A DNA stretch of 32,136 nucleotides from Rhodospirillaceae bacterium (GTDB lineage: Bacteria > Pseudomonadota > Alphaproteobacteria > UBA828): contig PBDG01000044.1 of assembly GCA_002717225.1 (NCBI GenBank), positions 1 to 32,136 of the forward strand. Direction: 5' to 3'. The translations under genes were made by a program, and so were the position numbers. Below, piece by piece: positions 1-26,124 of the stretch. The notes beneath the pieces were generated by a model. It saw only the letters and a list, made by a program, of their open reading frames with translations, was not told where the DNA came from and did no database searches. Each line of letters starts with the position of its first letter. Positions within the stretch are counted from its first letter, which is position 1.

Positions 1-302
1 ACTGCGCTCGGATGGCGGACACCGATGAAGGCGTATCCTCGATCGCGCATGTCCTCGAACAGGGATTGCCTGGCCATCTGACCCGGCATGAACCCAACGC
101 CGTTGGCGATGGCGAAGCGGTCCGGTGGGTGAGTCTCCGCCAGCCGCCCGGCGTCTAGGACCGGCAGCCCAGTGGGGCCGGTCGCAGATTGGTCGAGCGC
201 CGGATCACACACCCCGACGACTTCCGCGCCGGACAGGAGAAGAGCGTCGAGCACAACGCCGCCATGCCCACCCGCACCGAACAGAATCAACGGTTTGCTC
301 AC
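1..302 (-). CDS. NeuD/PglD-type sugar O/N-acyltransferase, N-terminal part (runs off the left edge)
   Basis: The GTG start at 302-300 overlaps the TGA stop of the NeuB gene, so translation is probably coupled. About 100 codons are visible before the window ends. The N-terminus carries a glycine-rich Rossmann-like motif (ILFGAGGHGGVVLDAL, about residues 6-21) followed by GVCDP. This is the substrate-binding domain of the NeuD/PglD/PerB family. The left-handed beta-helix acetyltransferase domain that would normally follow lies outside the window, so catalytic residues cannot be checked. Family members acetylate nonulosonic acids (NeuD, O-acetylation) or UDP-4-amino sugars (PglD). Placement as the last visible gene of a legionaminate-type operon fits either role. 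It could therefore supply the missing dedicated N-acetyltransferase (LegH role) or decorate the finished sugar. Confidence 0.8.
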   Translation of the reverse strand, partial: MSKPLILFGAGGHGGVVLDALLLSGAEVVGVCDPALDQSATGPTGLPVLDAGRLAETHPPDRFAIANGVGFMPGQMARQSLFEDMRDRGYAFIGVRHPSA

Positions 303-1381
303 TGATCGAGTGCCTCGTCCGCCACATAGGCGCGCCGCGCGGGCGTGCCGAGAAGATCCCAATAACGCATCGGCGACACGCCGCCGCCGGGCCGTTTGGC
401 CGTCATGCAGTCCGCCGTCAATGTTTCGCCGGCGGCGATCGGCCGGGCGGCGACGAGGCTACGCCGAGCGATGGGGAGATTTTTTTCCTCTGACAGCGTG
501 CACACCTTGCGCGCCTCGCCCAGCCCGGCCTCGACCGCACGGACACCGGATACCATGGCGCCAAGTTCGGAAGGCTCCAGCGATGCCGCGTGATCCGGCC
601 CAGGCAGCGACCGGTCGAGGGTGAAATGCTTCTCCAGCACCGCCCCACCGCGTGCCGCCGCGGCGAGCGAGATCGCGATTCCCACCGTATGATCGGAATA
701 GCCGACGGGAAGCGCGAACCGTTCGCGCATGGCATCCATCGCCCTGAGATGGATATCCTCGAAGGGCGCGGGATACTCAGTCGTGCAATGGAGCAAGGTA
801 ACCAGCCGCGCCAGATCGCCGCGAGCCATGGCAGCTTCAAACGCGGTCTGGAAGGCCTTGCGCGACGGCACTTCGCCAGGCGGCGCGTCCAAGCCGAAGG
901 CGATAATGCCGAGCGCTTCCTCGATTTCCTCCAAATTCGCCATGCCGGTGGACAGAATGATCGGCAAACCCGACCGGGCAACGGCCAAAATGAGCGGCCC
1001 ATTGGTGATTTCGCCGGAAGGTATTTTCATGCGCTGCACGCCGATATCGCCAACCAAAAATTCGGCGCTTTGCTCGTCGAACGGCGTTGACAGAAACTCG
1101 ATGCCCAGGCCCTCGGCCTGGGCGGCAAGACCGCGGAAATCTTCGTCCGACAATTCGAGTTGACGGATCATCGCCAGCTGATCTTCCGCCGTCCCCGTCG
1201 CAGCGCTCTGATAGGCCGCCTTGGGCGTGTTCTTGGCCACCACTTTCTCGGCCTTGAAGGTCTGGAATTTCACCACATCGGCGCCGGCGGCGGCGGCGGC
1301 CTCGATCAGGCGCCCGGCGAGGAGCAGCGAGCCATTGTGGTTGACCCCGGCCTCGGCGATAACCAATACGCGGTCAGACAT
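299..1381 (-). CDS. neuB: N-acetylneuraminate/legionaminate synthase (NeuB/LegI)
   Basis: This 360-residue cytoplasmic enzyme should condense phosphoenolpyruvate with a 2-acetamido hexose (ManNAc, or 2,4-diacetamido-2,4,6-trideoxymannose in the legionaminate route) to give a nine-carbon ulosonic acid. The N-terminus has the IAEAGVNHNG motif. It is followed by VKFQTF, EFLSTPFDE and KIPSGEITN, the last favouring the NeuB/LegI branch over PseI. The C-terminal 70 or so residues (SLVAARPIAAGE region) form the SAF/antifreeze-like domain. The length is normal. The ATG at 1381 was chosen because the protein then begins directly with the conserved IAEAG strand and overlaps the NeuC stop by 8 nt; an upstream extension to 1528 would lie inside neuC. 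LegB and LegC nearby make a legionaminate-type substrate more likely than plain ManNAc. Confidence 0.93.
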   Translation of the reverse strand: MSDRVLVIAEAGVNHNGSLLLAGRLIEAAAAAGADVVKFQTFKAEKVVAKNTPKAAYQSAATGTAEDQLAMIRQLELSDEDFRGLAAQAEGLGIEFLSTPFDEQSAEFLVGDIGVQRMKIPSGEITNGPLILAVARSGLPIILSTGMANLEEIEEALGIIAFGLDAPPGEVPSRKAFQTAFEAAMARGDLARLVTLLHCTTEYPAPFEDIHLRAMDAMRERFALPVGYSDHTVGIAISLAAAARGGAVLEKHFTLDRSLPGPDHAASLEPSELGAMVSGVRAVEAGLGEARKVCTLSEEKNLPIARRSLVAARPIAAGETLTADCMTAKRPGGGVSPMRYWDLLGTPARRAYVADEALDQ

Positions 1382-2555
1382 GAAAAGCGTCTCCGGCGGA
1401 CGGCAGATCGACAAATTTCTTGTGCAGCAGCGCGCCCGGGTCGGCGATCTCCTTGAGAATACACAGCACCCTGGCGGCAGTGTACCCATCGCCATAGGGG
1501 TTCTCGATATCCTTGCAGTCGAGTTCAAGTGCCGCGTTGAGTGCTGCGCCGATGGCCCGTCTGTCGGGCGCGCAATCGATCACCGAGGCCGCCCGCAACC
1601 GCCCGCCCTGCCGGTCGCCGATATTGACCGCCGGCGTGTGCAGGGACGGCGCCTCCAAGAGGCCGCTCGACGAATTGCCGACCACCACGTCCACCTCGTT
1701 CATGACGCTGAGATAGCGCCGATGTCCGAGCGAAGCGACTGCCACGGCGTTCTCCTGGCGTGCGACGAAGGCGTCGAGCGCCGCGGTCAGGGCCCGGCCT
1801 TCCGGGTCAGCATTGGGCTTGGTGAAGATCAGACCGCACACGTCATATTCCGCCAACGCCTCGAGAAGCGCAGCGAATTGATCGAGGGAAGGCACCATAT
1901 CCAATGTCGCGGGGTGGAAGGTGATCAAAAAATTGCGTTCGCGGAAGCGAAACCCGAGATCGTTCTCGAGCTCGTCGCGGCACATCAGGGTCATGCAGCG
2001 TAGAGCGTCGAGGCCAGGATCGCCTACGACGTGAACGCGCGCGGCATCCTCGCCCAACTGCCGCACGCGGCGCCCGGCATCCGCCGAAGCGACGAAATGC
2101 AGGCTGGCCATTTTGGTGATCGCGTGGCGCATGGCATCGTCGAAAGAGCCTTCGGTCACGTCACCGCCGGAGAAATGAATCAGCGGCAAGCCCATCACAA
2201 GCGCCGTCTCAGCCGCAGCCAAGGCTTCAAAGCGGTCGCCCAGCAACAGCACAAAGTCAGGCTTTAGCGCGGCGAAGGCATCGGCCAGGCCGGACAAGGC
2301 CAGGCCCATGGATTTCGCCACGCCAATTCCTGTATCGTCGGGCGTTACGATTTCCACCCGCGAATCGATGGCGAATCCGTCCGCCTCAATCTCGCGATAG
2401 GTCAGGCCGAATTCGGGCGCCAAATGGGTGCCCGTCGCCACCACTGACAAGTCGAACTCTCCGTCATCGCGCAGTTCGGCCATGACAGGCTGGAGCAGTC
2501 CGTAATCAGCGCGGCTCCCGGTGACAGCGCAGATGCGCATTGGTTTCGTTCTCAT
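1374..2555 (-). CDS. neuC: Hydrolysing UDP/GDP-N-acetylglucosamine 2-epimerase (NeuC/LegG)
   Basis: This 393-residue enzyme is of the NeuC/LegG family, which removes the nucleotide and inverts C2 to yield the free manno-configured sugar used by NeuB/LegI. The N-terminal VTGSRADYGLLQPV motif is the hallmark of the family. DFVLLLGDRFEALAAA, PLIHFSGGDVTEG and the C-terminal GNSSSGLLEAP are the GT-B-fold nucleotide-sugar-binding segments. The ATG at 2555 overlaps the previous stop (ATGA) and has AAGGA about 10 nt upstream; an in-frame ATG at 2540 lacks such a site. With LegB and LegC in the window, the likely substrate is a nucleotide-linked 2,4-diacetamido-2,4,6-trideoxyglucose. The presence of a PtmE-like gene argues for the GDP-linked version used in Campylobacter, but the sequence alone does not fix UDP versus GDP. 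Confidence 0.93.
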   Translation of the reverse strand: MRTKPMRICAVTGSRADYGLLQPVMAELRDDGEFDLSVVATGTHLAPEFGLTYREIEADGFAIDSRVEIVTPDDTGIGVAKSMGLALSGLADAFAALKPDFVLLLGDRFEALAAAETALVMGLPLIHFSGGDVTEGSFDDAMRHAITKMASLHFVASADAGRRVRQLGEDAARVHVVGDPGLDALRCMTLMCRDELENDLGFRFRERNFLITFHPATLDMVPSLDQFAALLEALAEYDVCGLIFTKPNADPEGRALTAALDAFVARQENAVAVASLGHRRYLSVMNEVDVVVGNSSSGLLEAPSLHTPAVNIGDRQGGRLRAASVIDCAPDRRAIGAALNAALELDCKDIENPYGDGYTAARVLCILKEIADPGALLHKKFVDLPSAGDAFHV

Positions 2556-3988
2556 TGTCTCGGTCCTTGCGTACCAGCGGCGCGCCACACCCAACAATAT
2601 TGGGTCCGGTTTTCGCCGAGGAACGGCATGTCGAAATTGCGTGGCGGGCGCGCAACATCACGCACGAAACCAGCCGTCTCAAAAGCGCGGATGGAAGCTC
2701 TGTTTTCTTCGAAAATCCAAGCTTCGGTAGGGCGCCGCTCGCCGGCTTCGACAAGTTTTTCAATCGCAAGCGCCAGCAAGCGGCGGCCCACCCCGCGTCC
2801 GGCTTCGCTGGTCGCAACACCCAGCGTCATCTCCAACGTCGCCCCGTGATCATCCAAATAGACATAACCGACCCGGCGCGCGCCGCAGGTGCCGATAAAG
2901 ATGGAACGCGACTCAATCCGCAAATTCCGGTCGTACCAATCCTGAAGGCCAAGCCAAATGGGCGGCTTGGTGTGGCCCGACCAAACGATATTATCGACGT
3001 CACATTTCAAGCGGAAGAAAAAGGCGAAATCACCGGCCGACGCGGGCCGCAACGTTACGTCTTCGTCTTTCAGATCCGGCGTCGGCTGAAATCGGTAACT
3101 AAGGAACTTGCCCTTGCGGTCGCGCGTCAGCCGGCCATAGGCATCGCGGTCAAAGATGATCCCGCCGGTGTAGAACGCGATGCGGCGAGGCGAGAACCGA
3201 GTCTTGAACAAGAGAAGCGAATCGCTGAGGCCACTGCCGCGCCCGCCGCCAAGATGCATCCAGCGTTGGCCCGCCGCCGCGTACCGGTTGATCGCATCTT
3301 CGAGTAGAAGGTGATGTGCGAATTTCTTGCGCGCATGAACGGTCCCGCCGGAAAGATGGTAGTGGGCGAAGCACCCGCTATGGAGAAAACAGGCAACGGC
3401 GATCGCCTCACCGTCCAGTTCGGCCACGCGCACATCGGCCCAATCGGCGGCGAGCAGTGTCTCGAAATGATCGCGCCGGAAGAAGTAATCGTCCTCAGCC
3501 TTGTTGCGCGCCAGGCCAGTCTCGTAAAGGGTACGGAACAAATCGCCTTCGCCTACCTCCAAGCGGCGCAGGGTGAGCGATTTTTCCGCTTGCCGCAGGG
3601 AGTAGCGGGTGCCCTTGGTATAGTTCCGATGACGCACCTCCTTGGGCTCGGCGAGATCGACCAGCACGGTCAACCGGTCGAAACGGATCTGATCAAACCA
3701 GCCGCGAAACGCCAGCGGATTGAGGAAGGGATGCATGCGGATGAACTCGGCAACTCGGCCGCGATCCGCCTGGCGCCGGCGCCACTCGCCGATACCGCGC
3801 CAAAAAGCATCGTCGTCGCGCGCCACGGGCCCGCCATAACCCCAGGGAATCTCCAGATCTTCGAGTTCCTCGCCGGGAATTTGTCGCACGGCACTGGTAT
3901 GGCGGAAGCCCGGCAGTTCCAGTGAATCGACCTTGTCGGGCGCAGCGTAGAGGCGGACGAATTGCGGATCAAAATAGATATCTGACAT
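2552..3988 (-). CDS. FemAB-like acyltransferase fused to a GNAT N-acyltransferase
   Basis: This two-domain protein has about 478 residues. Residues 1 to about 330 resemble FemAB/BioF2-like GNAT-fold proteins: a basic helix with Y-T-K-G-T-R-Y-S-L-R, then HYHLSGG, then the strong MHLGGGRGSGLSDSLLLFK segment typical of peptidyl/aminoacyl transferases. From about residue 340 there is an independent GNAT domain (VTLRPASAGDFAFFFRL), with the acetyl-CoA loop GRGVGRRLL and a C-terminal ENRASIRAFETAGF helix. In legionaminate operons a single GNAT enzyme (LegH) acetylates the 4-amino group made by LegC, and the C-terminal half is a good candidate. The FemAB-like half could add a second acyl or aminoacyl group; this is inference. 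The ATG at 3988 was chosen because MSDIYFDPQF begins the recognisable domain. In-frame ATGs at 4006 and 4033 are possible, and none has a convincing ribosome-binding site. ATGA overlap with neuC. Confidence 0.8.
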   Translation of the reverse strand: MSDIYFDPQFVRLYAAPDKVDSLELPGFRHTSAVRQIPGEELEDLEIPWGYGGPVARDDDAFWRGIGEWRRRQADRGRVAEFIRMHPFLNPLAFRGWFDQIRFDRLTVLVDLAEPKEVRHRNYTKGTRYSLRQAEKSLTLRRLEVGEGDLFRTLYETGLARNKAEDDYFFRRDHFETLLAADWADVRVAELDGEAIAVACFLHSGCFAHYHLSGGTVHARKKFAHHLLLEDAINRYAAAGQRWMHLGGGRGSGLSDSLLLFKTRFSPRRIAFYTGGIIFDRDAYGRLTRDRKGKFLSYRFQPTPDLKDEDVTLRPASAGDFAFFFRLKCDVDNIVWSGHTKPPIWLGLQDWYDRNLRIESRSIFIGTCGARRVGYVYLDDHGATLEMTLGVATSEAGRGVGRRLLALAIEKLVEAGERRPTEAWIFEENRASIRAFETAGFVRDVARPPRNFDMPFLGENRTQYCWVWRAAGTQGPRQ

Positions 3989-4023
3989 GACTTCTTCGGG
4001 CTTCATGCCGTAAAGCGTCAGGC

Positions 4024-5073
4024 TTATAGGCATGCGCGCACCAGTTCCGCCATGCGGCGCATGTCGCCGGGCGAATAACGCTGGTCGACCGGCAATGCTA
4101 CCAACGCGTCGCTCATTCGACAGGCCCGAAGATGCGCACTGTCCCGCGGCACCGCGTTCGGCCAAAGCGGCGTAGCAAACACCCGCCGCTCACGCAGACG
4201 GGAAAGAAGCGCCCCACGATCCCGGGCGGCGAAGGGCCAAGCGAAGGGTGTTCCGGGGCCAGGCGGCAGCAGACATTCGAGCTCCGACAGTTCGGAATCG
4301 AGGGCGGCAGCATTTGCCGAACGGCACCGCATATGATGCGCCCGGTCAGTGCGCATCAACAGGTCCCGCGAACGCTCGGTTATGCGGCACGCATGATCTG
4401 GCAACGCCTTCTCGGATTTTTCGACCAAGCCCAAGGCCTCGGTCTCGCGGTCCGGATCTTTCAGGGCGAACAGCTCTCTCGCGGCCCGCTTCAATCGCAC
4501 GGCCTCTCCAGCAAGCGGCAGCGCCTTGATGGCGCTATGCTCCCCGTGCGGAACTTTACCGAGGCGCAAAGCGGCGCCGTCGCCGATCGCCAGGGCCTTG
4601 CGTGGACAGGAGAGAACGGCGCCGCCGGCGGGCGGCGCGAAATCGAGGTGACCGAAGGCGCTTTGCGCGGCATCAACAACGACGGCAAAGCGCTCACCCA
4701 GCGCGCCGGCTAGAGCCCCGGCGTCGAGCCAGGGCGCTATGCCGAAGGGTGCCGGCAACAGTACCAACGCTCGCCCCTCAGCACGCTTGGCGAGACTTGA
4801 AAGATCCGTTTCGCCATAGTCGAATCGCGTCACCGCGAGCCCGCGCCGGCGAAAAAATGCGGGCACCGTCGGACAGGTATAGGCGCAAACGAGAGCGCAG
4901 TTAAACGGACCAAAGGCTTCGAGAAACCACGCCAATGCGGCGCGGCCGTGGGAAAACAGCAGAATCTTGGGATCGGGCGCGGTGGGCCGCTGCAAGAGAA
5001 CGTCGCAGCCTGCGGGCAATTCTCCGCCGAAGCGCTCGAAGGCCGGTGGGACGGCCTGACACGCTTCGTTCAT
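4024..5073 (-). CDS. Divergent DegT/DnrJ/EryC1-like PLP-dependent protein
   Basis: This 349-residue protein has the fold-type-I pattern of sugar aminotransferases but low similarity to its neighbour LegC. The Asp that pairs with the PLP ring sits in VVVDAAQSAFG (D134). The Schiff-base Lys is in SCPRKALAIGDGAAL (K159), in the position of LegC's NKVITTGGGG lysine, so it could be catalytically competent. The usual N-terminal W-V-S-S-G-type substrate segment is not evident. The start overlaps the LegC stop (ATGA at 5073), which implies coupled expression. Many surface-glycan loci carry such a second DegT-like protein of unknown role. A second amination, or an acyl-donor function with the adjoining FemAB-like protein, are both possible. 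I cannot assign a substrate. Confidence 0.72.
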   Translation of the reverse strand: MNEACQAVPPAFERFGGELPAGCDVLLQRPTAPDPKILLFSHGRAALAWFLEAFGPFNCALVCAYTCPTVPAFFRRRGLAVTRFDYGETDLSSLAKRAEGRALVLLPAPFGIAPWLDAGALAGALGERFAVVVDAAQSAFGHLDFAPPAGGAVLSCPRKALAIGDGAALRLGKVPHGEHSAIKALPLAGEAVRLKRAARELFALKDPDRETEALGLVEKSEKALPDHACRITERSRDLLMRTDRAHHMRCRSANAAALDSELSELECLLPPGPGTPFAWPFAARDRGALLSRLRERRVFATPLWPNAVPRDSAHLRACRMSDALVALPVDQRYSPGDMRRMAELVRACL

Positions 5074-6239
5074 GCCGCCGCCAGCCGCGCGCTGCTTGGG
5101 AGGCAGAGCAAGCTCGCGAAAATACGCTCGGCGCCGGGCAGCGCCATTCGCGGGCAATCGCGATACATCGGCAGAAGATGCATCGGCGTCCAGGCCGGTC
5201 GCGTGAGGTAACCGGCGGCGTTCGTCGTCTCAATTACCTGATCGCGCAACATCGGATCGGCGGCATCCAGCATCACACCGTTGAGCCAATGGTTACTGCT
5301 GCCGTCGGCCGGCTCCGCCACCAGGGTAGCCCCGTCAACCGACCCGAACGCCGCCCGGTAGCGTTCGGCCAGTTTGCGCTTACGGGCAAGTTGGTCACCC
5401 AGCGAATCGAGCTGAGCGCGGCCGAGGGCGGCATTCAATCCCGGAAGCCGGTAGTTGAAGCCAACCTCGTCATGGACGAATCCAACCCCGCCTTCGCGAC
5501 GAGCGGTGGTGGTCAGGTGTCTGGCATAAGCCGCGATTTCCGAATCGTCGATCAGAACGGCACCACCGCCGCCGGTGGTAATCACCTTGTTACCGTTGAA
5601 GCTGAGAGCGCCGGCGATGCCGAAGGTTCCGGTATGGCGCCCGGCGAAATAACTGCCAAGCGATTCGGCGGCATCCTCGACCAAGGCCAGCCGATAGTGC
5701 GCCGCCAGCTCCTGAAGCGCGGCCATATCGGCCGGCACCCCTAGCACATGCACCGCCAACAAGGCACGAATGGAGCGGCCCGTCATGCGGTTGACCGTCC
5801 CCTCGGGTGTGTCCTCGCAAACGGTTTCGAGATAGGCGGCGAGCGCGTCCGGATCGATGGCGAGGCGCTCCGGATCGCTGTCGACGAAATGCGCGACGGC
5901 GTCGCAATAGCTGACCGCGTTGGCGCTGGCGACGAAAGTCAGGCTCGGCATCAACACTTCGTCGCCCGGCCGCACCCCCGCAAGCCGCAGACATATATGA
6001 AGCGCCGCTGTGCCGTTCACTACCGCCACCACATGGCGAGCAGCGGTGACTTCGGCCAGCGCTTCCTCGAAGCGCTCGACATAAGGACCGGCGGACGAGA
6101 CCCAGCCGCTGGTGAGGCAGTCCTGCACTGCCGTGCGGTCCGCCGCGCCGAATTCAGGTTCGTGCAAGGGCACCGGCGCGCCCGCGGGCCCAATGGCTTG
6201 CTCGATGGCCGCTAAAATATCGTCGGAAATTTCAGTCAA
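5070..6239 (-). CDS. legC: LegC-family nucleotide-sugar aminotransferase
   Basis: This 389-residue PLP enzyme of the DegT/DnrJ/EryC1 class closely follows the LegC pattern: SGWVSSAGPYVERFE near residue 44, SLTFVASANAVSY near 99, EDAAESLGS with PLP-ring Asp189, and SFNGNKVITTGGGGA with Schiff-base Lys218. LegC transfers an amino group from glutamate to the 4-keto group of the nucleotide-linked 6-deoxy-4-hexulose made by LegB. The product is then N-acylated. The start is a TTG at 6239-6237 preceded by AAAGG with 6 nt spacing, overlapping the stop of the radical SAM gene by 8 nt; no ATG lies nearby in frame. Length and active-site residues are intact. Its partner LegB is encoded 16 kb away on the other strand. 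Confidence 0.93.
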   Translation of the reverse strand: MTEISDDILAAIEQAIGPAGAPVPLHEPEFGAADRTAVQDCLTSGWVSSAGPYVERFEEALAEVTAARHVVAVVNGTAALHICLRLAGVRPGDEVLMPSLTFVASANAVSYCDAVAHFVDSDPERLAIDPDALAAYLETVCEDTPEGTVNRMTGRSIRALLAVHVLGVPADMAALQELAAHYRLALVEDAAESLGSYFAGRHTGTFGIAGALSFNGNKVITTGGGGAVLIDDSEIAAYARHLTTTARREGGVGFVHDEVGFNYRLPGLNAALGRAQLDSLGDQLARKRKLAERYRAAFGSVDGATLVAEPADGSSNHWLNGVMLDAADPMLRDQVIETTNAAGYLTRPAWTPMHLLPMYRDCPRMALPGAERIFASLLCLPSSARLAAA

Positions 6240-7200
6240 GATGGCCTTTCAGATCGAACGGCAGTTCGCCCGCCCCGATACTTCCTTCCGCCACATAGTG
6301 ATGGATCAAACATTTGAACGAAGGCTCGCCTGACAGAGTCCCGTGCACGCTGCATTTGTCGCAGGGCGCAAAATCGCGCTTTCCCAACATCAATTTGCGC
6401 CGCACCTCGAGCATACGCGGGGCCAGCCAAAGCTCGTCCAAATTTTTGTCGTTGAGATTGCCGACCACGATTTTGCGACCCCAATCGTTGGAGCAAAAAA
6501 GCACGTCGCCGTTCCAGTCGAGCAGCATTTTGTAAAACGGGTAGTGGCAGCGCATTTCCAATGCTTTTGCCAACGGGCCGACATCGGCCTCCGGGGCGTT
6601 CAACACGCCGGAACGATTGTTCAGCGTGAGAGCGAAATCCTCTCCCGCCCCGACCCAATGCGGACGAAGTTTCCAATGCCCGTCGGGAACCTTAGCCTCC
6701 GCTACCAGCGCCTCAAAATATGGCCGCTGCTCGGGGCCATCATAGAGGTTGATATAGAGGTATGTCAGTCCGGCCTCAAACAGGTCCGTTATCAAGTCGG
6801 CATTCAAGCGATCGCCATTGGTGTTGATCTCAATGGTATTTTCCGGGCACCGGCGGCGAATGCGACCGACGATCTCGGTAAACCCCTTATGTAACAGCGG
6901 CTCGCCGAAACCGGAAAAGGAGAAACGGCAGGAAAGACCGAGGCGCGCCACTTCATCGGCCAGTCGATCCACCAGTGAAATATCCATGTTGAGATTTCGG
7001 TTGGGATAAATCTTGGGATCGACACGCGGGCAAAACACGCAGACCCTGTTGCACAGTTCCGTGATGTTCAATTCTATGGTCAACAGGCTGGCCATCGGCC
7101 GATCATCGACCTGGCGCGAAAAATGTTCTTTTTCCTGCGCCTTGCGGTGTGTCAGGTGCGGATCGATGAAGTCAGGCGATCTGTTTGAAGTATCGGTCAT
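6232..7200 (-). CDS. Radical SAM/SPASM-domain enzyme
   Basis: This 322-residue radical SAM protein has the 4Fe-4S/SAM-binding CxxxCxxC motif as CNRVCVFC (C50, C54, C57), followed by FSFSGFGEPLLH (the GE-type SAM motif) and IEINTNGD. A C-terminal SPASM-like auxiliary cluster region is present, with conserved cysteines in MRCHYPF, LFCSNDW and CDKC. The nearest familiar proteins are uncharacterised SPASM proteins of glycan and peptide-modification loci. Its position between the Gfo/Idh oxidoreductase gene and LegC suggests that it modifies a nucleotide sugar or polyprenyl-linked sugar, for example by dehydrogenation, deoxygenation or epimerisation. The actual reaction cannot be read from sequence. 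The ATG at 7200 lies 34 nt after the stop of the upstream gene. Confidence 0.85.
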   Translation of the reverse strand: MTDTSNRSPDFIDPHLTHRKAQEKEHFSRQVDDRPMASLLTIELNITELCNRVCVFCPRVDPKIYPNRNLNMDISLVDRLADEVARLGLSCRFSFSGFGEPLLHKGFTEIVGRIRRRCPENTIEINTNGDRLNADLITDLFEAGLTYLYINLYDGPEQRPYFEALVAEAKVPDGHWKLRPHWVGAGEDFALTLNNRSGVLNAPEADVGPLAKALEMRCHYPFYKMLLDWNGDVLFCSNDWGRKIVVGNLNDKNLDELWLAPRMLEVRRKLMLGKRDFAPCDKCSVHGTLSGEPSFKCLIHHYVAEGSIGAGELPFDLKGHLD

Positions 7201-8221: not shown

Positions 8222-10007
8222 GAGATTCCTCCTTTTGGTGAGACACGCTCTGGCGCGCAACGCGGGTCCCCAGTTCCCGGGCAAGAGCGTCGATACCGGG
8301 TGTGTCGGCCGGCCAGCGATAGGGCGCGATTTCCGCGTCCTCGAGGGGGCGGCCCGTATGGGCATCCAGAATGGCCTGGATCATGCTTGGCAGTTGCGCC
8401 GCCTTGCGAGCGCGATAGAGAACCGAACGGTCATCCCTCGTCGGCAGCTCATCCCGAGCCGGCAGGAAACTGTAGCGTGACGTCGCACCCCACAGCAAAA
8501 CGGGTTTGCGCGCGAAGATGGCTTCCTCGACTGTGGTCGAATGGAAGCTGACCAAGAGGTCGGCGCGCGCAAGATCCTCATCGAACGGCACGTCGCGCAT
8601 CTTGATTTCGCAGTTCGCCGGCGGCGCCACCAATTTCGTCAGCGCCTCGAGATCGCATTCGGGCTTGTACTTGGCGCGAATGAGAAGGCGCGTGTCCTTC
8701 ATTCGGTCGACCGCCCGCGCCAGGGCCCGCGACACCGTCACGAAGGCATCGCCGGTCAGGAAGACATAGGAGTGCGGAAACCACCAAGCCGCGTAGGTAT
8801 CCGCCAGCAGGATCAGACGTTCGCCCGGCGGGCGTGCCACAGGCGGCGCGACGGGCCGCGCAACGATAGGCCGAATGCTACTTCTCACCGGTTCGGAAAA
8901 TGCGACCCGCGCGGCCTTGCCGCCTGCCGGAGAGAAGAAAAGCGGTTCGTCAACAAGACCGTCAGGATATCGCGCCCTCAGATATCCCACGCAACCATCA
9001 TACGCCAACGCGCCTTCGGGCGGCGCCAGGGCGTTGCGACTCATGACCACCCGTGGCGCTCCTATATCGCCGCAGGCTTCGGCAAGGACATAGCTTTGAA
9101 TGTGGGATACCTCTGCCGCGATGAAGGCATGCGGATCATAGCTAGCGACGATGCGCTCGGCCTCTTCGCGAAGGGATGGCAGGCGCGCAAATTTATAAGC
9201 CAGCAGGTCGCGATACAGTTCGAGCGGAAAACGGATAACCGGATCGGACATCGAAGCGACCGCCCTATCGGCAAGCCGGCTACCCGCTTTGTCATCGGGG
9301 GAATCGACCATCGACACTTGAACCATGCCGTGGGGATTGGACGCTCTCACGATTTCTCGCCCAAGCTTAAGATATTCTCGCCAACCGGACCGGGGCAAGC
9401 CTACAACCAAGCTGCGAACCACGAGCCCCTGCTTTCCAAACGCCTGAAACAGGCCAAATTGCTCTTTGGCGGTGCCCAACACCAACCGTGCCTGGGAATG
9501 ACGATGCGGCCGCAGCGCCAGGCGACGCAGCAAGCGGTAGAGATCGGCGAACGGCGGCGGCGCGATGCGGGCGGCCTTGGCCTCTCCGGCAATCTTGGGC
9601 GTCAGGAAATGCCGCGCGACGGACCGGAAGGCGTCCGTTCGCTCGGTTTCGAGGGTAAAATCATCACCGGCGGGAACCAGCCAGGGCCCCGCGGCGCCAA
9701 GCGAATACCAAAGTCGACACGCGCCGTATGCCACGCGGTTAATTTGATCGATAACGATCTCACGCTCCGCCGGCGATGCCGGCACAAAGGCCGCGAGGGC
9801 CGCGCGCCGCGCTTTCGTCACGCGCGCAACCGTACGCGCCTCCGCGCAATCCGCGTAACGCGACATTGCGTCGATCACCGACCAAGGCCCATCTTCGGCA
9901 ACTGATCGAGCGTTGGGTGTAAGCGCCAACACGTTGTCGATTGCCGGCACGTCCGCCGCTGTCAAATTACGCCAATCGGCACGGGTGACGAGAACGGCTT
10001 CGACCAT
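8208..10007 (-). CDS. Large GT-B-like surface-carbohydrate protein, possible nonulosonate glycosyltransferase
   Basis: This 599-residue soluble protein has no predicted signal peptide. I do not recognise it with certainty. The C-terminal 180 residues have the shape of a GT-B donor-binding half. A strand ERLILLADTY starts it, then LLIRAKYKPE. DLLVSFHSTTVEEAIFARKPVLLWG matches the element seen in capsule and polysialyltransferase-like enzymes, where a small-residue/TT/E cluster binds the nucleotide. The middle segment VVRSLVVGLPRSGWREYLKLGREIV could be another Rossmann unit. The start at 10007 shares one base with the ABC transporter stop (TGATG). In an operon that makes CMP-nonulosonate and encodes an exporter, it is a reasonable candidate for the transferase that uses the activated sugar. 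That is inference from context. Confidence 0.7.
   Translation of the reverse strand: MVEAVLVTRADWRNLTAADVPAIDNVLALTPNARSVAEDGPWSVIDAMSRYADCAEARTVARVTKARRAALAAFVPASPAEREIVIDQINRVAYGACRLWYSLGAAGPWLVPAGDDFTLETERTDAFRSVARHFLTPKIAGEAKAARIAPPPFADLYRLLRRLALRPHRHSQARLVLGTAKEQFGLFQAFGKQGLVVRSLVVGLPRSGWREYLKLGREIVRASNPHGMVQVSMVDSPDDKAGSRLADRAVASMSDPVIRFPLELYRDLLAYKFARLPSLREEAERIVASYDPHAFIAAEVSHIQSYVLAEACGDIGAPRVVMSRNALAPPEGALAYDGCVGYLRARYPDGLVDEPLFFSPAGGKAARVAFSEPVRSSIRPIVARPVAPPVARPPGERLILLADTYAAWWFPHSYVFLTGDAFVTVSRALARAVDRMKDTRLLIRAKYKPECDLEALTKLVAPPANCEIKMRDVPFDEDLARADLLVSFHSTTVEEAIFARKPVLLWGATSRYSFLPARDELPTRDDRSVLYRARKAAQLPSMIQAILDAHTGRPLEDAEIAPYRWPADTPGIDALARELGTRVARQSVSHQKEESLVPL
8228..8234 (-). 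promoter_or_regulatory. Strong ribosome-binding site deciding a TTG start
   Basis: On the minus strand the bases read AAGGAGG, followed by 6 nt and a TTG codon at 8221-8219. It lies inside the last codons of the upstream gene. It is the strongest Shine-Dalgarno sequence I noticed in the left operon and is the main evidence for where the Gfo/Idh protein begins. Confidence 0.8.
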
Positions 10008-11819: not shown

Positions 11820-12398
11820 TCAGGCATAGGCGACGTAACTCTCGCACACGGTCCCGCGCACATCCTTTAACAGGTGCGCCGCACGGAGCGATTTGAATTT
11901 CTCACTTTGCCAGGCGTCGAGAAGATCCGTCTCGTTGAGGTTTCCCATGTGAAAGCGTCCGTCATGGTCGAAGCAACATGCCGCCAGCATGCCGTCCCAG
12001 GTAATGTGCCCCTCGGTAAAGAGAGCCCAGCACGGCGGCGGATCGCGCAGCGCGCCGACACGGCAGGGATTTCCCGCTGTGATCGTCCACTCCAGTTCCG
12101 TCTCGCGCTCGGCGGCGAGGTCGCCCTGGTTGTAGAGCGGCAAGGCGTATATCTCGTCGACATAGGGCGTCACCTGTTCGCCCAGCGCCGCCATGCGTTT
12201 GCGATGCTCGCCGTTATACAAAATATAGGAGGCGTAAATACCGCAATCATGGCCGCCTTCATCGCGCACCCGGCGGGACTCGCGGAGATTATCGATCACC
12301 TTGTCGAACAACTCCGGCTTGACCCCGGCAACATCGGATAACTGGTCCGCGTCGGTATAGGTAATCGCATCGATTTGCGTGGTCATGGAGCGGGTCAT
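11820..12398 (-). pseudogene. N-terminally truncated radical SAM/SPASM protein (C-terminal half only)
   Basis: About 192 residues match only the back half of radical SAM/SPASM glycan-locus proteins: KPELFDKVIDNLRESRRVRDEG, DCGIYASYILY, ALPLYNQGD, then the SPASM segment CWALFTEGHITWDG and ACCFDHDGRFHMGNL. The radical SAM core with CxxxCxxC is absent, and only about 135 nt separate this start from the upstream gene, so it has been deleted. The last SPASM pair also looks damaged: the protein ends VCESYVAYA, where relatives usually have VCExC. An ATG at 12398 with AAGGA upstream would still allow translation, and an ATG at 12386 is possible. I read it as a decaying gene, although a standalone SPASM-only protein cannot be excluded. 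Confidence 0.65.
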
Positions 12399-12532
12399 GG
12401 CAGGACGTTCCTTCTCGTCGGAGTGCAACTCACCCCGGCAGAACCGCTGTTTGCTTCCCCAAGAAAAACATGTTCAAGAAATACTTGGTCGGTTCGCCGG
12501 CGGTGCGCTTGCCGCGCAAACAACGGCCGGCG

Positions 12533-13600
12533 TCAGCTCTTGCGCTCGTCATGAGCCGATTTGAGATCGTCGGGCCGGCCTATATCCCGCCAATATTCAT
12601 GCACGGGGAATATGCCGAGCCGGAATCCCGCGCGCTTGGCCAATTCGAGAATCTCCGGCATATCGACAGGGCGATCCGGCGGCACCAGCCCGATGATTCG
12701 CGGCGACAGCAAATAGATGCCGCCGGCCACGAGATATTGATAAGTCGGCTTTTCATCGACGCCGGTAAGGAGACCGCTATCGTCATGGCGCAACACGCCA
12801 TAGGGAATGTCGACCTCATAGGGCGCGGCGCCGACCGTCCCATCATAGCCGTGACGGAAGTGAAATTCGGTGAGCGCCTTGAGATCGACCTCCGTCAGAA
12901 CGTCGCCATTGATCACCAGAACGGGCCCGTCGAGATTGGCCGGCAGCTGGCCCAGCGCGCCGGCGGTTCCTAAGGGCTCGGTCTCGTTGATGAGGCGAAT
13001 ATCGGCCTGATTGGCGCGCGCGTCGACGAACGATGCGATCTGATCTGCGAGATAATGAACAGCGATGTGAACTTCGGGAATGCCCGCCTTTTCAAGCTGA
13101 CTCAAAACATGCTCCAGCACCGGCTTGTCGGCCACCTCGAGCAACGGTTTGGGGCGCTGCTTAGTGTGATCGCCCAGGCGCCGGCCGAAGCCGCCAGCCA
13201 TCACCAGAACCCGCCCGATCGTGCCGTCATGGCGCTGCCGAGTCAGAATTCGAACCAGCCGTCCGTCAGCATCCACCACGGGCAGGAAAAAGGACGTGTC
13301 GATCACCACTTCATTGTTGTCGGCCTCAGCCTGGGTCGCGATCCTTGGCGAGGTGTTCATGCACCCGCTGACCGGCTCGTCAAGATCCATGCTGGCTAAC
13401 ATGGCACGGCGAATATCGCCGTCGGTGACCGTGCCGAGCACACGCCGCTCGTCGTCCAGCACCACCTGAAACAAATTCGGCGATGCCCGTTCGATGCGCG
13501 CCAGTGTTTCGCGGATCGTTGCCCCCGGTCGGCAAATCAGCAAATCGTTCGACGCAGTGTCAGCGATTCCGTAAGGCGGCGTTGCGGAATCTTCAGCCAT
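12533..13600 (-). CDS. ptmE: CBS-domain sugar-1-phosphate nucleotidyltransferase (PtmE-like)
   Basis: This 355-residue protein has a pair of CBS motifs in residues 15-125 (GTVTDGDIRR and LVRILTRQRHDG). These are followed by a nucleotidyltransferase domain with VLVMAGGFGRRLGDHT, the PKPLL loop and the metal-binding VINGDVLT. It ends with the characteristic HEYWRDIGRPDDL. The architecture matches Campylobacter jejuni PtmE, which makes GDP-glucosamine in the GDP-linked legionaminate pathway, so the same first step is the best guess here. The CBS pair probably senses an adenine or other nucleotide. The ATG at 13600 overlaps the upstream stop by 8 nt and is preceded by AGGAAAGAG. An upstream start at 13672 would add a tail with no matching domain. 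Confidence 0.85.
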   Translation of the reverse strand: MAEDSATPPYGIADTASNDLLICRPGATIRETLARIERASPNLFQVVLDDERRVLGTVTDGDIRRAMLASMDLDEPVSGCMNTSPRIATQAEADNNEVVIDTSFFLPVVDADGRLVRILTRQRHDGTIGRVLVMAGGFGRRLGDHTKQRPKPLLEVADKPVLEHVLSQLEKAGIPEVHIAVHYLADQIASFVDARANQADIRLINETEPLGTAGALGQLPANLDGPVLVINGDVLTEVDLKALTEFHFRHGYDGTVGAAPYEVDIPYGVLRHDDSGLLTGVDEKPTYQYLVAGGIYLLSPRIIGLVPPDRPVDMPEILELAKRAGFRLGIFPVHEYWRDIGRPDDLKSAHDERKS

Positions 13601-14339
13601 AATCTCTTTCCTGCCTTGCATCGGCGCGCGTCGGGGGCGCAAAATCGTGATGCCGCGCCATTGCCTCGGCAACGATGAAATCGTACTCCTCGTCGATATC
13701 GACGGCGCGCTCGCGCGGCACTACGACGGCGCGCATGGGCGCCATGTAGATACGCTTTTCTTGCTGCAGCGCCGCCCGCCGCACCACCCAGACCGCACCC
13801 GCCGGCAATAGCGCCGGCTCGATGAGCTGAGTGTGCTGGCGTGTGCCAGCGAGGTCACCGCCCATCATCAATTCGACCTCGCCCCGTTCCGTCTTGCGAA
13901 ACATCCATTGCGGCGGCTCGCTAACCTGCCGGGCCAGAAAGCAGCAGCGCGTATCGCTCTCCTCGAGCCGGTCGAGACAGGCATCGATATGATCGGCCTC
14001 GATGAACGGCGCCGTCGGCTGGATGAGCGCCGCCAGATCGAATGTTTCACCGCATTCGCGGTCAAGAGTTTCCAAAGCATGCAGCAAGACCTGATCCGGG
14101 CCGACATAATCTTCAGCCAGCACCTCGGGCCGAAGGAAGGGAACATCGAGGCCCCAGGTCCGCGCCACTGCGGCGATCTCCTCGTCTTCAGTGGAGACGA
14201 CGACGCGGTCAAGCCGGCTTGCCTGCGCCGGCCGGCCGGCCCAAGCGAGCAGCGGTGCGCCGAGCAGCGGGCGAATCACCTTGCGTGGAATCCGCTTCGA
14301 TGCACCTCGGGCGACGATGACACCCAAGGACCGGGTCAT
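13593..14339 (-). CDS. legF: CMP-nonulosonic acid synthetase (NeuA/LegF-type cytidylyltransferase)
   Basis: This 248-residue enzyme should transfer CMP from CTP to the free nonulosonic acid. The N-terminal VIVARGASKRIPRKVIRPL is the CTP-binding P-loop-like motif of the CMP-NeuAc synthetase family (usual form ARGGSKxIPxKN), with Ala-Ser replacing Gly-Ser. ALIQPTAPFIEADHID is the sugar-binding region. RAVDIDEEYDFIVAEAM at the C-terminus carries the metal-binding Asp pair. The ATG at 14339 is preceded by GGGAG; an overlapping TTG at 14342 is less likely. In this operon the product would be CMP-legionaminate or a derivative. Size is normal and no key motif is missing. Confidence 0.9.
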   Translation of the reverse strand: MTRSLGVIVARGASKRIPRKVIRPLLGAPLLAWAGRPAQASRLDRVVVSTEDEEIAAVARTWGLDVPFLRPEVLAEDYVGPDQVLLHALETLDRECGETFDLAALIQPTAPFIEADHIDACLDRLEESDTRCCFLARQVSEPPQWMFRKTERGEVELMMGGDLAGTRQHTQLIEPALLPAGAVWVVRRAALQQEKRIYMAPMRAVVVPRERAVDIDEEYDFIVAEAMARHHDFAPPTRADARQERDYG

Positions 14340-14369
14340 CAAATAGCTCCCGCGACGAACGCCATAGCC

Positions 14370-15623
14370 TCACGACACTCGATGGCGCAGCTCCCAGCCG
14401 TCATTGATCCGGCGCCAGAGATGGGGCGAGCGAAAGCGGTCGGCGATCTCGAAAAACTCCGTCTCGTCGAGACCCAAATAGTTGAGGAACTCGGGAAAAA
14501 ATTTGCGCGGAAATTCTTCGTCGTAACGATGCACAAGAGCGACCGCCTCGTCGCGCTCAATATGATGGTTACGGATTTCCTGGCTCGCATCATAGGTTGC
14601 GCGGCCAATGCCGAACTTAATCAACGTCGTCCAGTAGTGATAGGGATCGGTCTTGTCGTCGATCGAGTTGTATTTCGAGTAGGTACCTTCGGTGCGTTCG
14701 GTATTAGCGACGAAATTCGTGTGCTCGACCGCGTAGTAATAATTCTGCTGTGGCGTCCATTGCAGGTAATAGCCGAGATAATGCACCTCGATCTCAGCAC
14801 CCGCGAGGACATCGGTATCGGCCGGCAGATAGGGCGTGATTTGCGCCGGCAACACGCCGTGCTCAGGCAGTTCTGAAATCGGCACGCCGCCAAGATACAT
14901 CTCCTCACCCTGGCTCTGCGCGAAATAGCGCTCACGCCGGCGCGCGCCCTCGTTCTCGTCGATGGGGTTGCCGTATTCCGCTTCATTCTCGCCATAAAAA
15001 ACCAGCGGTAGGTTCATTCTGAGCGCCATGGTGGGCGCGAAGTTTTTTTGACCGAGAATAAACGGCTGGAAGGGATGCAACAGATTCTCATAGGCCAGAC
15101 GGGTCAGCTTGCGATGCACCTGACCGTCCGGCGTGAAGAGATAATTGTCGAACCCGCCCATATGCAGCCAATTCTGGAAATTGCGCCAGCCCACATCGGT
15201 GTAGAGATGCGGCGCCCAGGTGACCGTCAGCGGATGCATATCGTATTTGGTCTTCAAGATATGCGAGGCATACACCGAATCCTTGCCTCCAGAGCCAGGC
15301 GCTAGGCAATCGTAGGAGCCGTTGCGTGAGCGGTACTTGTCGCACAGCGCACGAAGCGCCCGTTCGCGTTCCTCCCAATCGACCTCGACATCCTTCTGTT
15401 CGGCATAGCGGCAAGCGTCGCAGATACCGTCCTCGCCGAAGTGAATCGTATTCTTCTTGCTATCACGGCGATGTTGAAACTCGACGGAAGAAGACGGTCG
15501 CTGATTTGAGATAACGCAACGACCGCAGAACTTCACCTCGCCCGGCAATCCGTATTTGACTTCCAGCCGACCATCAACGGGATCGTCGATGAAATCCACC
15601 GCGTTATTACTCGAAACCACCAT
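14370..15623 (-). CDS. N-acetyl sugar amidotransferase (PseA/WbpG/PtmG-like)
   Basis: This 417-residue PP-loop ATPase has SGGKDS at 111-116 (adenylating the N-acetyl carbonyl). A probable zinc ribbon is formed by C33/C36 and C68/C71. Two further conserved stretches are APTMALRMNLPLVFYGENEAEYG and LGYYLQWTPQQNYYYA. The family converts an N-acetyl group to an acetamidino group using ammonia released from glutamine. The gene touches the HisH-like gene (TGA followed directly by ATG) and lies next to the HisF-like gene, the same trio as Pseudomonas WbpG/HisH2/HisF2. The likely substrate here is a legionaminate-type sugar or its precursor, as proposed for Campylobacter PtmG; a different hexosamine is possible. 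Confidence 0.92.
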   Translation of the reverse strand: MVVSSNNAVDFIDDPVDGRLEVKYGLPGEVKFCGRCVISNQRPSSSVEFQHRRDSKKNTIHFGEDGICDACRYAEQKDVEVDWEERERALRALCDKYRSRNGSYDCLAPGSGGKDSVYASHILKTKYDMHPLTVTWAPHLYTDVGWRNFQNWLHMGGFDNYLFTPDGQVHRKLTRLAYENLLHPFQPFILGQKNFAPTMALRMNLPLVFYGENEAEYGNPIDENEGARRRERYFAQSQGEEMYLGGVPISELPEHGVLPAQITPYLPADTDVLAGAEIEVHYLGYYLQWTPQQNYYYAVEHTNFVANTERTEGTYSKYNSIDDKTDPYHYWTTLIKFGIGRATYDASQEIRNHHIERDEAVALVHRYDEEFPRKFFPEFLNYLGLDETEFFEIADRFRSPHLWRRINDGWELRHRVS

Positions 15624-16259
15624 TCACTTTGTCCCAGTCACGCCAACCTCAGCAAAAAAATTTCGCAACATTTGCAGGCCAACCGGCCCACTCTTTTCAG
15701 GATGAAATTGACAGCCTACCACCTGTTCCTGCCTCACGATCGCCGGCACTGCGAGCCCATTGACATCGCTGGTCGCTACGATTGAATCGTCTTCCGCAAA
15801 GAAGCCGTAGGAATGAACGAAATAGGTCATGATATTGTCGGACAAGCCTTTGCACAGAGGGTCGTTTCGATGCTTGTCAAGTCTCCTCCAGCCCATATTG
15901 GGAATACGAATACCGCCCTGTGTGAAGGGCTCCGGCAGCGCACGCACCAAGCCGGGGATAATGCCGAGCCCGTCGCGTGCGCCAAATTCCTCGCTCTTCG
16001 CCGCGAGAATCTGCATGCCGAGGCAGATGCCGAGCAGCGGAATACCTTGGGAGGCGGCGTCGCGTAATGGTGTCACCAACTCCCGGTCCGCCAGCGCGTC
16101 CATGGCGTCGGCGAACGCCCCAACACCGGGTAGAACGATAGCCGCAGCCGCCCGAATATCCTCGGGTCGCTCGCTCACCGCATGGTCGACGCCTATGTGC
16201 GAGAGTGCGTGCGACAGGCTGTACAGATTGCCGCGGCCATAATCGATGACGGCAATCAC
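15624..16259 (-). CDS. hisH: HisH-like glutamine amidotransferase subunit for sugar amidination
   Basis: This 211-residue class-I glutamine amidotransferase has the nucleophile Cys79 in GICLGMQ and the His186/Glu188 pair in CQFHPEKSG. The oxyanion strand is in LPGVGAFADAM. It has complete catalytic residues and should release ammonia from glutamine and pass it to its HisF-like partner. The GTG start at 16259 overlaps the HisF-like stop (GTGA). No other his genes surround it, and the PseA/WbpG-type gene follows immediately. I therefore read it as the ammonia supplier for acetamidino-sugar formation, not as part of histidine biosynthesis. Confidence 0.92.
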   Translation of the reverse strand: MIAVIDYGRGNLYSLSHALSHIGVDHAVSERPEDIRAAAAIVLPGVGAFADAMDALADRELVTPLRDAASQGIPLLGICLGMQILAAKSEEFGARDGLGIIPGLVRALPEPFTQGGIRIPNMGWRRLDKHRNDPLCKGLSDNIMTYFVHSYGFFAEDDSIVATSDVNGLAVPAIVRQEQVVGCQFHPEKSGPVGLQMLRNFFAEVGVTGTK

Positions 16260-17020
16260 TGGCGAACCTCCCAGCCGGCAGTCGCCAGCTCAGATTTGAG
16301 TGCGGGTAGCGGCAGGCGGTCATAGTGAAACAACGAGGCGCAACAAACCGCATCGCACCGACTCTCTTCCAGAAGCATCTGAACATGCGCGCCTTCCCCT
16401 GCGCCGCCGCAAGCGATGATAGGCACCGAAACTCTATCTCGTACCGCCTTGACCAGTTCGATGTCGAACCCTTTTTCAGTACCTTCCATGTCTACCGACG
16501 TGACAAGGATCTCGCCAATACCCCGTGCCTCGGCCTCAGCTACCCAATCCAAAACGTCAACCCCGGTTTGCTCACGGCCATTGTCGGTCAGCGCCTCCCA
16601 CTTGCCGGCGTCCCGCCGTTTCGCTTCAACCGACAGCACGACGCATTGCCGGCCGAAGGCCTCGGCAGCTTCGGTGAGAAAGTCGGGTCGCTGAAGGGCG
16701 GCAGTATTGATGGCCACTTTGTCAGCACCACTCCTGAGCGCGGCAACGATATCCTCTACACTGCGAATAGCGCCGCCTACCGTCATCGGCACGAAGAGCT
16801 CGGCGGCAGCTTCTTCGACCACGGAAAGAATGCTGTTACGGCCGTAGAGCGACGCAACAACATCCATGTAAATAATTTCGTCTGCACCCTGCTCATAATA
16901 TTTTCGCACCATCGCGCCTGGTTGGCCGACCACCTTGAGTCCCTCCAGATGAATACCCTTGATCACATTGGGGCCCTTGATATCGATGCGGGCAATAATC
17001 CGGACCGGCGGCACATTCAT
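16256..17020 (-). CDS. hisF: HisF-like (beta/alpha)8 partner of the sugar amidotransferase
   Basis: This 254-residue TIM-barrel protein of the HisF2 subgroup begins RIIARIDIKGPNVIKGIHLEG and has the diagnostic stretch IIYMDVVASLYGRNS. Canonical HisF has CLDVK at the first strand and SVDAK at the fifth; here these are RIDIK and SVEAK. The first catalytic Asp is kept, but the cysteine and the second catalytic Asp are changed (to Glu). Such changes are seen in LPS-locus HisF2 proteins that channel ammonia to WbpG and do not make imidazole glycerol phosphate. The gene overlaps both neighbours by four bases (ATGA, GTGA), so the trio should be made in fixed ratio. Confidence 0.92.
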   Translation of the reverse strand: MNVPPVRIIARIDIKGPNVIKGIHLEGLKVVGQPGAMVRKYYEQGADEIIYMDVVASLYGRNSILSVVEEAAAELFVPMTVGGAIRSVEDIVAALRSGADKVAINTAALQRPDFLTEAAEAFGRQCVVLSVEAKRRDAGKWEALTDNGREQTGVDVLDWVAEAEARGIGEILVTSVDMEGTEKGFDIELVKAVRDRVSVPIIACGGAGEGAHVQMLLEESRCDAVCCASLFHYDRLPLPALKSELATAGWEVRQ

Positions 17021-18549: not shown

Positions 18550-19356
18550 TCATACATCGCTCTTTCTTGCCGGCTCGCCGGCATGTACAGCCTGGCGTGG
18601 ACGCCGCAGTACGGCACTTGCCTGGCCGACCGTCGTAGCCAGCCAGATCAGGTTGGCGCTCACTCCGAATGCTACGGTCAGGCCAAGGTAGACCCAGCGT
18701 CCTTCCGGCAGAAGGATTAGCCAAGGCGCAAAGCAATAGAGATTCATCGACAGCCGGACTGGCCAATTTCTTATCCGTTCAAAATAATTGATCCGTGCTG
18801 TGTCTTTATCGCTGAGAGGTCCGGTTCGCCTGATCATCCATTCGCGCACGAAGCTAAAACGGTGGCGTGCCGTCCCGGTCAGCAGCGCAATGATGCTGGC
18901 GATGCCACCGATCACCATCGCCGCACCGCCGCCACCATCCTCCCAAAGACCAATAGCGATAGCGAAGGGCGCCGCGAACAGAACGACATCGTCTGCAAAT
19001 CCATCAATGAACTTACCCCAGTAATTGCCCTTGTCGTCGAGCCGCGAAAGATTGCCATCGACGCAATCGAGCACATAGGCGAGCGTAAAAGCGACAAGCC
19101 CGACAAAGCCAACCCAATAGTTACCGATGGCGAACAGCACCAGGGAAAAACCGCCGATCAGAAGGCGGAGCAAAATCACTTGATCCGCGGTTACGCCCAA
19201 ATTGTAGAACGCCGGCGTCATCAGATTGGCGAGTGGGCGGGCAAAATAGGCGAGGCTAATTGGCTCGTCCTCCGGCGCGCGGAAGGACGCCCTTACTTCA
19301 GCCAACCCAATCCGGATACGGCCACCGGAAAACCTACCCGTGCGGCTCTCTGTCAT
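18550..19356 (-). CDS. CDP-alcohol phosphotransferase family membrane protein
   Basis: This 268-residue integral membrane protein has about six hydrophobic helices. The family motif D-x2-D-G-x2-A-R-x8-G-x3-D-x3-D is present as D97, D100-G101, S104-R105, G114, D118 and D122. The only change is Ala to Ser at 104. Enzymes of this class move a phospho-alcohol or phospho-aminoalcohol from a CDP or CMP carrier to a lipid or sugar hydroxyl. The ATG at 19356 has GGGGAG at good spacing; the longer reading to 19401 lacks support. It is the first gene of the long minus-strand operon. Because a phosphonate-activating gene lies 5 kb away, it could transfer a phosphonate head group; ordinary phosphatidyl or phosphoethanolamine transfer is equally possible. 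Confidence 0.85.
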   Translation of the reverse strand: MTESRTGRFSGGRIRIGLAEVRASFRAPEDEPISLAYFARPLANLMTPAFYNLGVTADQVILLRLLIGGFSLVLFAIGNYWVGFVGLVAFTLAYVLDCVDGNLSRLDDKGNYWGKFIDGFADDVVLFAAPFAIAIGLWEDGGGGAAMVIGGIASIIALLTGTARHRFSFVREWMIRRTGPLSDKDTARINYFERIRNWPVRLSMNLYCFAPWLILLPEGRWVYLGLTVAFGVSANLIWLATTVGQASAVLRRPRQAVHAGEPARKSDV

Positions 19357-26099: not shown

Positions 26100-26124
26100 G
26101 CCCGATAAGCGAAAAGTATAGCGC

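Follow-up and report, generated by a model that had tools for sequence, protein, structure and literature searches.

A FemX-like/GNAT fusion in an alphaproteobacterial legionaminic-type operon and its possible role in sugar N-acylation

The window analysed here, the whole 32,136-nucleotide stretch of contig PBDG01000044.1 from a Rhodospirillaceae bacterium (assembly GCA_002717225.1), contains a minus-strand gene that encodes a FemAB(FemX)-like domain fused to a GNAT N-acetyltransferase domain, within an operon for a legionaminic-type nonulosonic acid (NulO). Our preferred reading, to which we give a probability of roughly 40%, is that the fusion is a bifunctional N-acylating enzyme of this pathway, which would transfer an aminoacyl group and then cap it with an acetyl group. 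The reading draws on the homology and predicted folds of both halves, on the fusion and the operon that holds it, on the tie of the wider family to LegC-type pathways, and on the recurrence of N-modifying partners in that family.

2552..4033, minus strand: FemAB(FemX)-like/GNAT fusion gene, 493 amino acids (aa)
3083..4033, minus strand: N-terminal half, double-GNAT/FemX-like; P0001 residues 1-302 plus a 15-residue N-terminal extension
2555..3073, minus strand: C-terminal half, GNAT N-acetyltransferase domain; about residues 305-478, with the loop AGRGVG

The open reading frame (ORF) as first given, P0001, runs from 2552 to 3988 on the minus strand (478 aa). An earlier note on this DNA used the same coordinates; its frame holds, but the start most likely lies 15 codons upstream at the ATG at 4033 (MPISLTLYG...), since this segment is matched by homologous residues in the related loci L024 and L026. 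The ATG at 4033 overlaps the stop codon of the upstream gene. The presence of a FemAB-like and a GNAT domain in one chain, as that note proposed, is borne out by Pfam, by a structural model and by two further genomes: a second copy of the two-domain protein is encoded by an isolate, Pacificispira spongiicola KN72 (L024; 61% identity in the FemAB part), and a third by a metagenome-assembled genome (L026, from G236; 48% identity over 472 aa). An artefactual fusion is thereby ruled out, as two more genomes, one of them an isolate, encode it. A phage or defence gene was likewise rejected (no phage match, no viral relative and no PADLOC hit for P0001), as was a fusion ubiquitous in the lineage, the window genome being alone in carrying it among 21 genomes of the family and 22 of the order; at the class level it was found in two of 385 genomes.

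In the N-terminal half, Pfam places Acetyltransf_6 (PF13480) on P0001 residues 127-249 with 29.5 bits (cut-off 22) and FemAB (PF02388) on residues 195-268 with 21 bits, under the cut-off of 24, which the relative in L089 exceeds (45.2). An AlphaFold2 model of the window protein (mean pLDDT 90.8, pTM 0.87) was built from a 50-row alignment (A4), comprising the window and 49 of the 80 related loci described below; A4 leaves out many Planococcus near-copies and the formyltransferase and PglD fusions, and four GNAT rows were removed from it as misaligned. The top Foldseek match of the model is Weissella viridescens FemX (E 5e-14), followed by Sbb17/Sba18, lysylphosphatidylglycerol (LPG) synthase (MprF), Staphylococcus aureus FemX and FemA, and VIA comparisons of residues 1-297 with FemX, FemA and Sbb17/Sba18 give Z scores of 22.5-24.3 over 258-282 residues. 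When a 10-row family profile was compared with the PDB, all eight rows at E<=0.01 were FemX or aminoacyl-tRNA-using peptide synthases (FemX 5e-21, 9wqw 2e-12, 6snr 5e-10, the rest being further FemX and 9wqy chains). Lys305 of the FemX catalytic site aligns with Lys262, which all 50 aligned relatives share, and a coenzyme A (CoA)-type motif, [QR]xxGx[GA], is absent from the FemAB C-lobe in 49 of the 50 rows and present in one. No NCBIfam model matched P0001 or the FemAB-like protein of L163, and the FemX model NF047883 scored far under its cut-off of 500 for L070 (33) and for the FemAB part of L036 (28).

The N-terminal half as modelled thus has the double-GNAT fold of FemX, and the structure prediction that had been proposed for both halves gives no sign of an N-terminal half unrelated to FemAB. 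Because the top characterised double-GNAT structural relatives use aminoacyl-tRNA, an aminoacyl donor, raised in the earlier note from FemAB relatives, is reasonable.

The C-terminal half is matched by two Pfam GNAT families on P0001 residues 311-442 (PF00583, 35.6 bits, cut-off 20.7; PF13302, 29.6 bits, cut-off 25.4). The best VIA comparison of residues 305-470 is with the C-terminal domain of MJ1062 (3eo4; Z 18.5), followed by BlmB, SpeG, AAC(6')-Ib with acetyl-CoA (Z 17.3) and PseH (Z 16.4), and SpeG-type acetyltransferases are also matched by Foldseek. Its acetyl-CoA loop keeps GxGxG (AGRGVG), the first position being Ala and not Gln/Arg. This half is predicted to be an ordinary amine-acetylating GNAT.

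The genes around the fusion, in operon order on the minus strand, are those for LegC, a DegT-like protein, the fusion, LegG, NeuB and the 5' part of a NeuD/PglD-like protein.

5070..6239, minus strand: LegC-type aminotransferase (TIGR04181)
4024..5073, minus strand: divergent DegT/DnrJ/EryC1-fold protein (from a structure model; no Pfam hit)
1374..2555, minus strand: LegG/NeuC hydrolysing 2-epimerase (TIGR03568), with an ATGA overlap with the fusion gene
299..1381, minus strand: NeuB/LegI nonulosonate synthase (TIGR03569)
1..302, minus strand: 5' part of a NeuD/PglD-like acetyltransferase gene, truncated at the contig end

Adjacent genes share overlaps of a few bases (ATGA or similar), which suggests that the operon is translationally coupled; the coupling of the fusion to NeuC/LegG noted previously is seen as the ATGA at 2555-2552. 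The proposal that the fusion occupies the position of LegH stands only in part. Relatives such as L070 have a FemAB-like gene alone in that position, but in the window a NeuD/PglD-like gene, of a type called LegH in Plesiomonas (PMC4481668, available part), follows NeuB in the operon; the fusion is therefore not the sole acyltransferase of the operon, nor the sole N-acetyltransferase candidate between the LegC and LegG/LegI steps. The NeuD/PglD-like gene has a GTG start overlapping the NeuB stop, and its fragment is 55% identical over 97 aa to a hexapeptide protein of L024. Both this 5' end, in the first 302 bases, and the divergent DegT-type gene directly upstream of the fusion had been omitted from the earlier note.

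In the pathway from nucleoside diphosphate (NDP)-GlcNAc (steps from the available part of PMC6137143), the C2 nitrogen is already acetylated, and the C4 amine made by LegC is free and becomes C7 of the nonulosonic acid. Because the C2 nitrogen is occupied, we infer that the acceptor amine is the C4 amine from LegC. With aminoacyl-tRNA as donor, the FemX-like half would transfer an aminoacyl group, most likely alanyl or glycyl, to the 4-amino group (the future C7 amine) that NDP-4-keto-6-deoxy-GlcNAc receives from LegC. The resulting aminoacyl amide would have a free alpha-amine, suited to the GNAT half (in relatives, to formyl- or methyltransferases), and the GNAT half would use acetyl-CoA to acylate this newly introduced amine. 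LegG and NeuB would then build the nonulosonic acid from the N-(N-acetyl-aminoacyl) sugar. The addition of two different acyl groups to a diamino sugar, as first suggested, is possible, but sequential aminoacyl transfer and capping needs fewer free sugar amines.

A genome scan with a FemAB-like alignment identified 377 of 434 pattern matches as relatives, and the counts below refer to the 80 best-scoring loci, a set that was obtained with a one-peptide pattern and is not a random sample. No FemAB ORF was called in L025 (cut by a contig end) or L098, which are counted where n is 80 and excluded where n is 78, and in some GC-rich loci ORFs were assigned to the wrong frame (in L021, for example, tblastn shows NeuC-FemAB-NeuB, absent from the ORF list). 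NeuB/NeuC is present in 26 of the 80 loci and a PglC-type sugar transferase in 28, with none having both; LegC is present in 46, and 60 have at least one of the three. Because it is shared by the NulO and PglC-type settings, which never overlap, the implied acceptor is a 4-amino-4,6-dideoxy NDP-sugar. On a tree of the 80 FemAB domains these settings are strongly clustered: the tree requires 16 changes, whereas shuffling gives 38 on average. Among Campylobacterales, 45 of 348 genomes match at 1e-6, mostly weakly; FemAB-like genes lie in ptm-like loci in L162-L165, in L162-L164 beside methyltransferases and a PtmG-like gene, and in the ptm-type legionaminic locus L163 (1-15500) the gene stands between two methyltransferases and the PtmG-like gene, a position that we take, from gene order, to be comparable to Cj1321-Cj1326 of Campylobacter jejuni. 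Three Planococcus loci (L057, L075 and L083) each have four FemAB-like genes within 17 kb, an arrangement that would suit the building of a multi-residue chain.

A FemAB-like gene occupies the exact LegH slot in L031, L040 and L070, the last being an almost gapless operon of the order dehydratase-LegC-FemAB-NeuB-NeuC-PtmE-NeuA. This would also be expected if the FemX-like half were an unusual LegH using acetyl-CoA or acyl carrier protein, with the GNAT half second or redundant and only ordinary acyl groups on the sugar: the standard product needs one acetylation at this point, and PF13480 proteins (e.g. plasmid matches) are annotated as N-acetyltransferases. We nevertheless regard this as improbable, if also a serious competitor, as the near-absence of the CoA motif from the C-lobe and the aminoacyl-tRNA use of the closest characterised structures argue against it, and it would make the recurrent fusion to other N-acylating enzymes and to methylating ones redundant. 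The L040 operon, otherwise gapless, has an ORF6N/Rha phage-antirepressor-type gene (9949-10842) between NeuB and NeuC.

Such fusions are not confined to the window. The GNAT fusion forms a clade of five alphaproteobacterial members (the window, L024, L026, L027 and L028) with support of 100/100, while other FemAB-like proteins are fused to a formyltransferase (L036 by Pfam; the sequences of L041 and L052 are similar to it), a PglD-like hexapeptide domain (L089) or a methyltransferase (L164). A free GNAT lies beside FemAB in L064, L065 and L071, with Clostridium having a GNAT like the C-terminal half as a separate neighbour; the signature LKCDxDNIxWSGH of the window has its counterpart, LKCDEENIYWTGH, in the free GNAT of L065. 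With somewhat less than even confidence, we suggest that a widespread and unrecognised family of tRNA-dependent transferases may attach amino acids to nucleotide sugars of the bacillosamine and legionaminic types at their 4-amino group, with GNAT, formyl- and methyltransferases as capping enzymes, the window encoding an alanyl- or glycyl-plus-acetyl version.

The second recurrent partner is the DegT-like protein, which is present in 33 of the 80 loci (16 NulO and 14 PglC-type) and in 22 of 78 is encoded no more than 250 bp from FemAB. It has no Pfam or NCBIfam match, but its model (pLDDT 93.2) matches DegT-type sugar aminotransferases, and the pyridoxal phosphate (PLP) Lys and Asp, assigned through an alignment with LegC, are invariant in all 32 aligned rows. 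Its role may be to add another amino group or to prepare the donor. In the former case two amines would be modified: the GNAT half or the NeuD/PglD-like neighbour would be the C4 N-acetyltransferase, and the FemX-like half would aminoacylate the amine added by the DegT-like protein. The frequency, conservation and fold of the DegT-like protein are consistent with this, as are the NeuD/PglD-like gene of the operon and the 8-amino nonulosonic acid known in Flexibacter (PMC3210612, available part). However, 10 of the 26 NulO loci lack a DegT-like gene, and by hidden Markov model (HMM) search L070 lacks DegT-like, GNAT and hexapeptide genes alike, which leaves the C4 amine as its only known acceptor; moreover, an oxidase that would open another carbon was not identified in most loci, although the window has a Gfo/Idh gene. 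The two-amine scheme comes close to the pair of acyl groups on a diamino sugar suggested in the earlier note; we consider it unlikely, if a serious competitor. In L100 (6216-7961) a PglC-type sugar transferase and a DegT-like protein are fused in one frame.

Several observations weigh against sequential aminoacyl transfer and capping. The scheme leaves the DegT-like partner unexplained. The fold by itself does not establish the donor of the N-terminal half; no tRNA gene, and hence no dedicated donor, was seen in the window or in the loci of 27 chosen relatives, and an Rfam scan of the window gave zero matches. MJ1062 is nearest to the GNAT half, which is also like PseH, and direct C4 acetylation would fit this too; the NeuD/PglD-like neighbour, as a LegH candidate, could be the C4 acetyltransferase, and hexapeptide genes occur in the L024 and L026 loci as well. 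The strict [QR]xxGx[GA] motif is present in only four of 12 standalone GNATs. Of the 26 FemAB genes in NulO loci, 11 have an N-modifying gene next to them or fused with them, against 5 of 26 for NeuB, 3 of 25 for NeuC and 3 of 21 for LegC, a moderate excess that is only suggestive because the detection HMMs were partly built from genes near FemAB; across all loci the excess is small (FemAB 19/78, LegC 9/46, PglC-type sugar transferase 6/28).

Capping is also not conserved within the fusion clade, as L024 and L026 have a degenerate GxGxG loop, and in L027 and L028 the entire tail is degenerate. A GNAT-tail HMM scores 48 bits for L024 and 99 for L026, does not recognise the L027 tail and barely that of L028, and gives 162 bits for the window; the window protein is among the seeds of this HMM, which affects all of these scores. 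This raises the possibility that the GNAT half is decaying or purely structural and that the FemX-like half acts alone, which we think highly improbable: the window GNAT keeps its GxGxG loop, scores above the cut-offs of two Pfam families and is intact in the model, and in Clostridium this GNAT occurs as a gene of its own next to FemAB.

Further from the fusion, the window encodes other functions of nonulosonic acid and amino-sugar metabolism, in an upstream set that also includes a PglK-like transporter.

12533..13672, minus strand: CBS-nucleotidyltransferase, PtmE-like, for NDP-sugar supply
13593..14342, minus strand: CMP-nonulosonate cytidylyltransferase, NeuA/PseF-like (below the PseF cut-off)
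14370..15623, minus strand: N-acetyl sugar amidotransferase WbuX (TIGR03573), with HisH/HisF as partner, for acetamidino formation
15624..16259, minus strand: HisH-like glutaminase
16256..17020, minus strand: HisF-like cyclase

Much of this gene set is kept, in rearranged order, in L026 and in Pacificispira L024. Directly upstream of LegC is a radical SAM/SPASM protein (6232-7200, minus strand) with scores far below cut-off for named families, and a second SPASM fragment lies at 11820-12428. The plus-strand interval 24378-27276 carries a fusion of phosphoenolpyruvate (PEP) mutase, which passes the TIGR02320 cut-off, with an NTP-transferase domain, followed by a thiamine pyrophosphate enzyme like phosphonopyruvate decarboxylase. 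Together with a CDP-alcohol phosphatidyltransferase encoded at 18550-19401, these are a possible surface-phosphonate branch. A stand-alone LPG_synthase_TM domain (MprF flippase-type; 27850-28872, plus strand) adjoins a methyltransferase-GT2 fusion (28869-30365), and the ORF at 20688-21824 (minus strand), in which DUF924 begins at residue 252 after about 250 aa that have no Pfam match, is either an unusual fusion or a frame change.

Bacterial amino sugars that carry amino-acid acyl groups (N-acetyl-alanyl, glycyl and others) are known chemically, and the FemX-like family described here is a candidate for the amino-acid step in several phyla, including in the flagellar-type legionaminic loci of Campylobacterales. 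If this is correct, aminoacyl-tRNA would be linked to cell-surface glycans outside peptidoglycan and lipids, and would feed the diversity of surface sugars. No enzyme for the amino-acid step on nonulosonic acids was found in the literature searched, and no paper combining FemAB with nonulosonic acid or bacillosamine was found by full-text search, most subscription papers lying outside both.

Among known systems, the window protein shares its double-GNAT fold, HMM similarity and the Lys305 equivalent with FemABX (FemX of W. viridescens and S. aureus, and FemA) and with Sbb17/Sba18, PacB and Orf11, FemX-like synthases that depend on tRNA. The acceptor is an amino-sugar compound for Orf11 and, as judged from complexes, for Sbb17/Sba18, which was solved with streptothrisamine. 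Unlike FemABX, the N-terminal half is found in an NDP-sugar/nonulosonic acid pathway, is fused to a GNAT, has no peptidoglycan or antibiotic setting, and has a donor that is predicted. LegH, PglD and PseH are comparable in their pathway setting and probably share the nucleotide-sugar pool, and PseH resembles the GNAT half, as does MJ1062; PseH and PglD-type enzymes, however, lack a FemX-like half, and the window has a separate PglD/NeuD-like gene besides. In the type B flagellin glycan of Clostridioides difficile, the glycine of a taurine-Ala-Gly unit acylates Fuc3N, and the authors' candidate acyltransferase is CDR20291_0244, of the FemAB superfamily, for which a mutant was not obtained (PMC5207245 and PMC5207246, available parts). 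By their description that locus is alike in having a FemAB-type gene, an FdtB-like aminotransferase (0247) and an amino sugar acylated by glycine, and unlike in having Fuc3N rather than a nonulosonic acid, with 0244 not described as a fusion in those parts. N-acetyl-alanyl (N-acetyl-D-alanyl) and N-acetylglycyl groups are known on 4-amino-4,6-dideoxyglucose (PMC3210612), and, as far as the available part of PMC7371886 shows, Leg5Ac7AcAla of Vibrio vulnificus CMCP6, with N-acetyl-alanyl at C7, is the type of product predicted for the window fusion. The fold and the type of chemistry are thus already known, whereas the nonulosonic-pathway setting and the GNAT fusion appear to be new.

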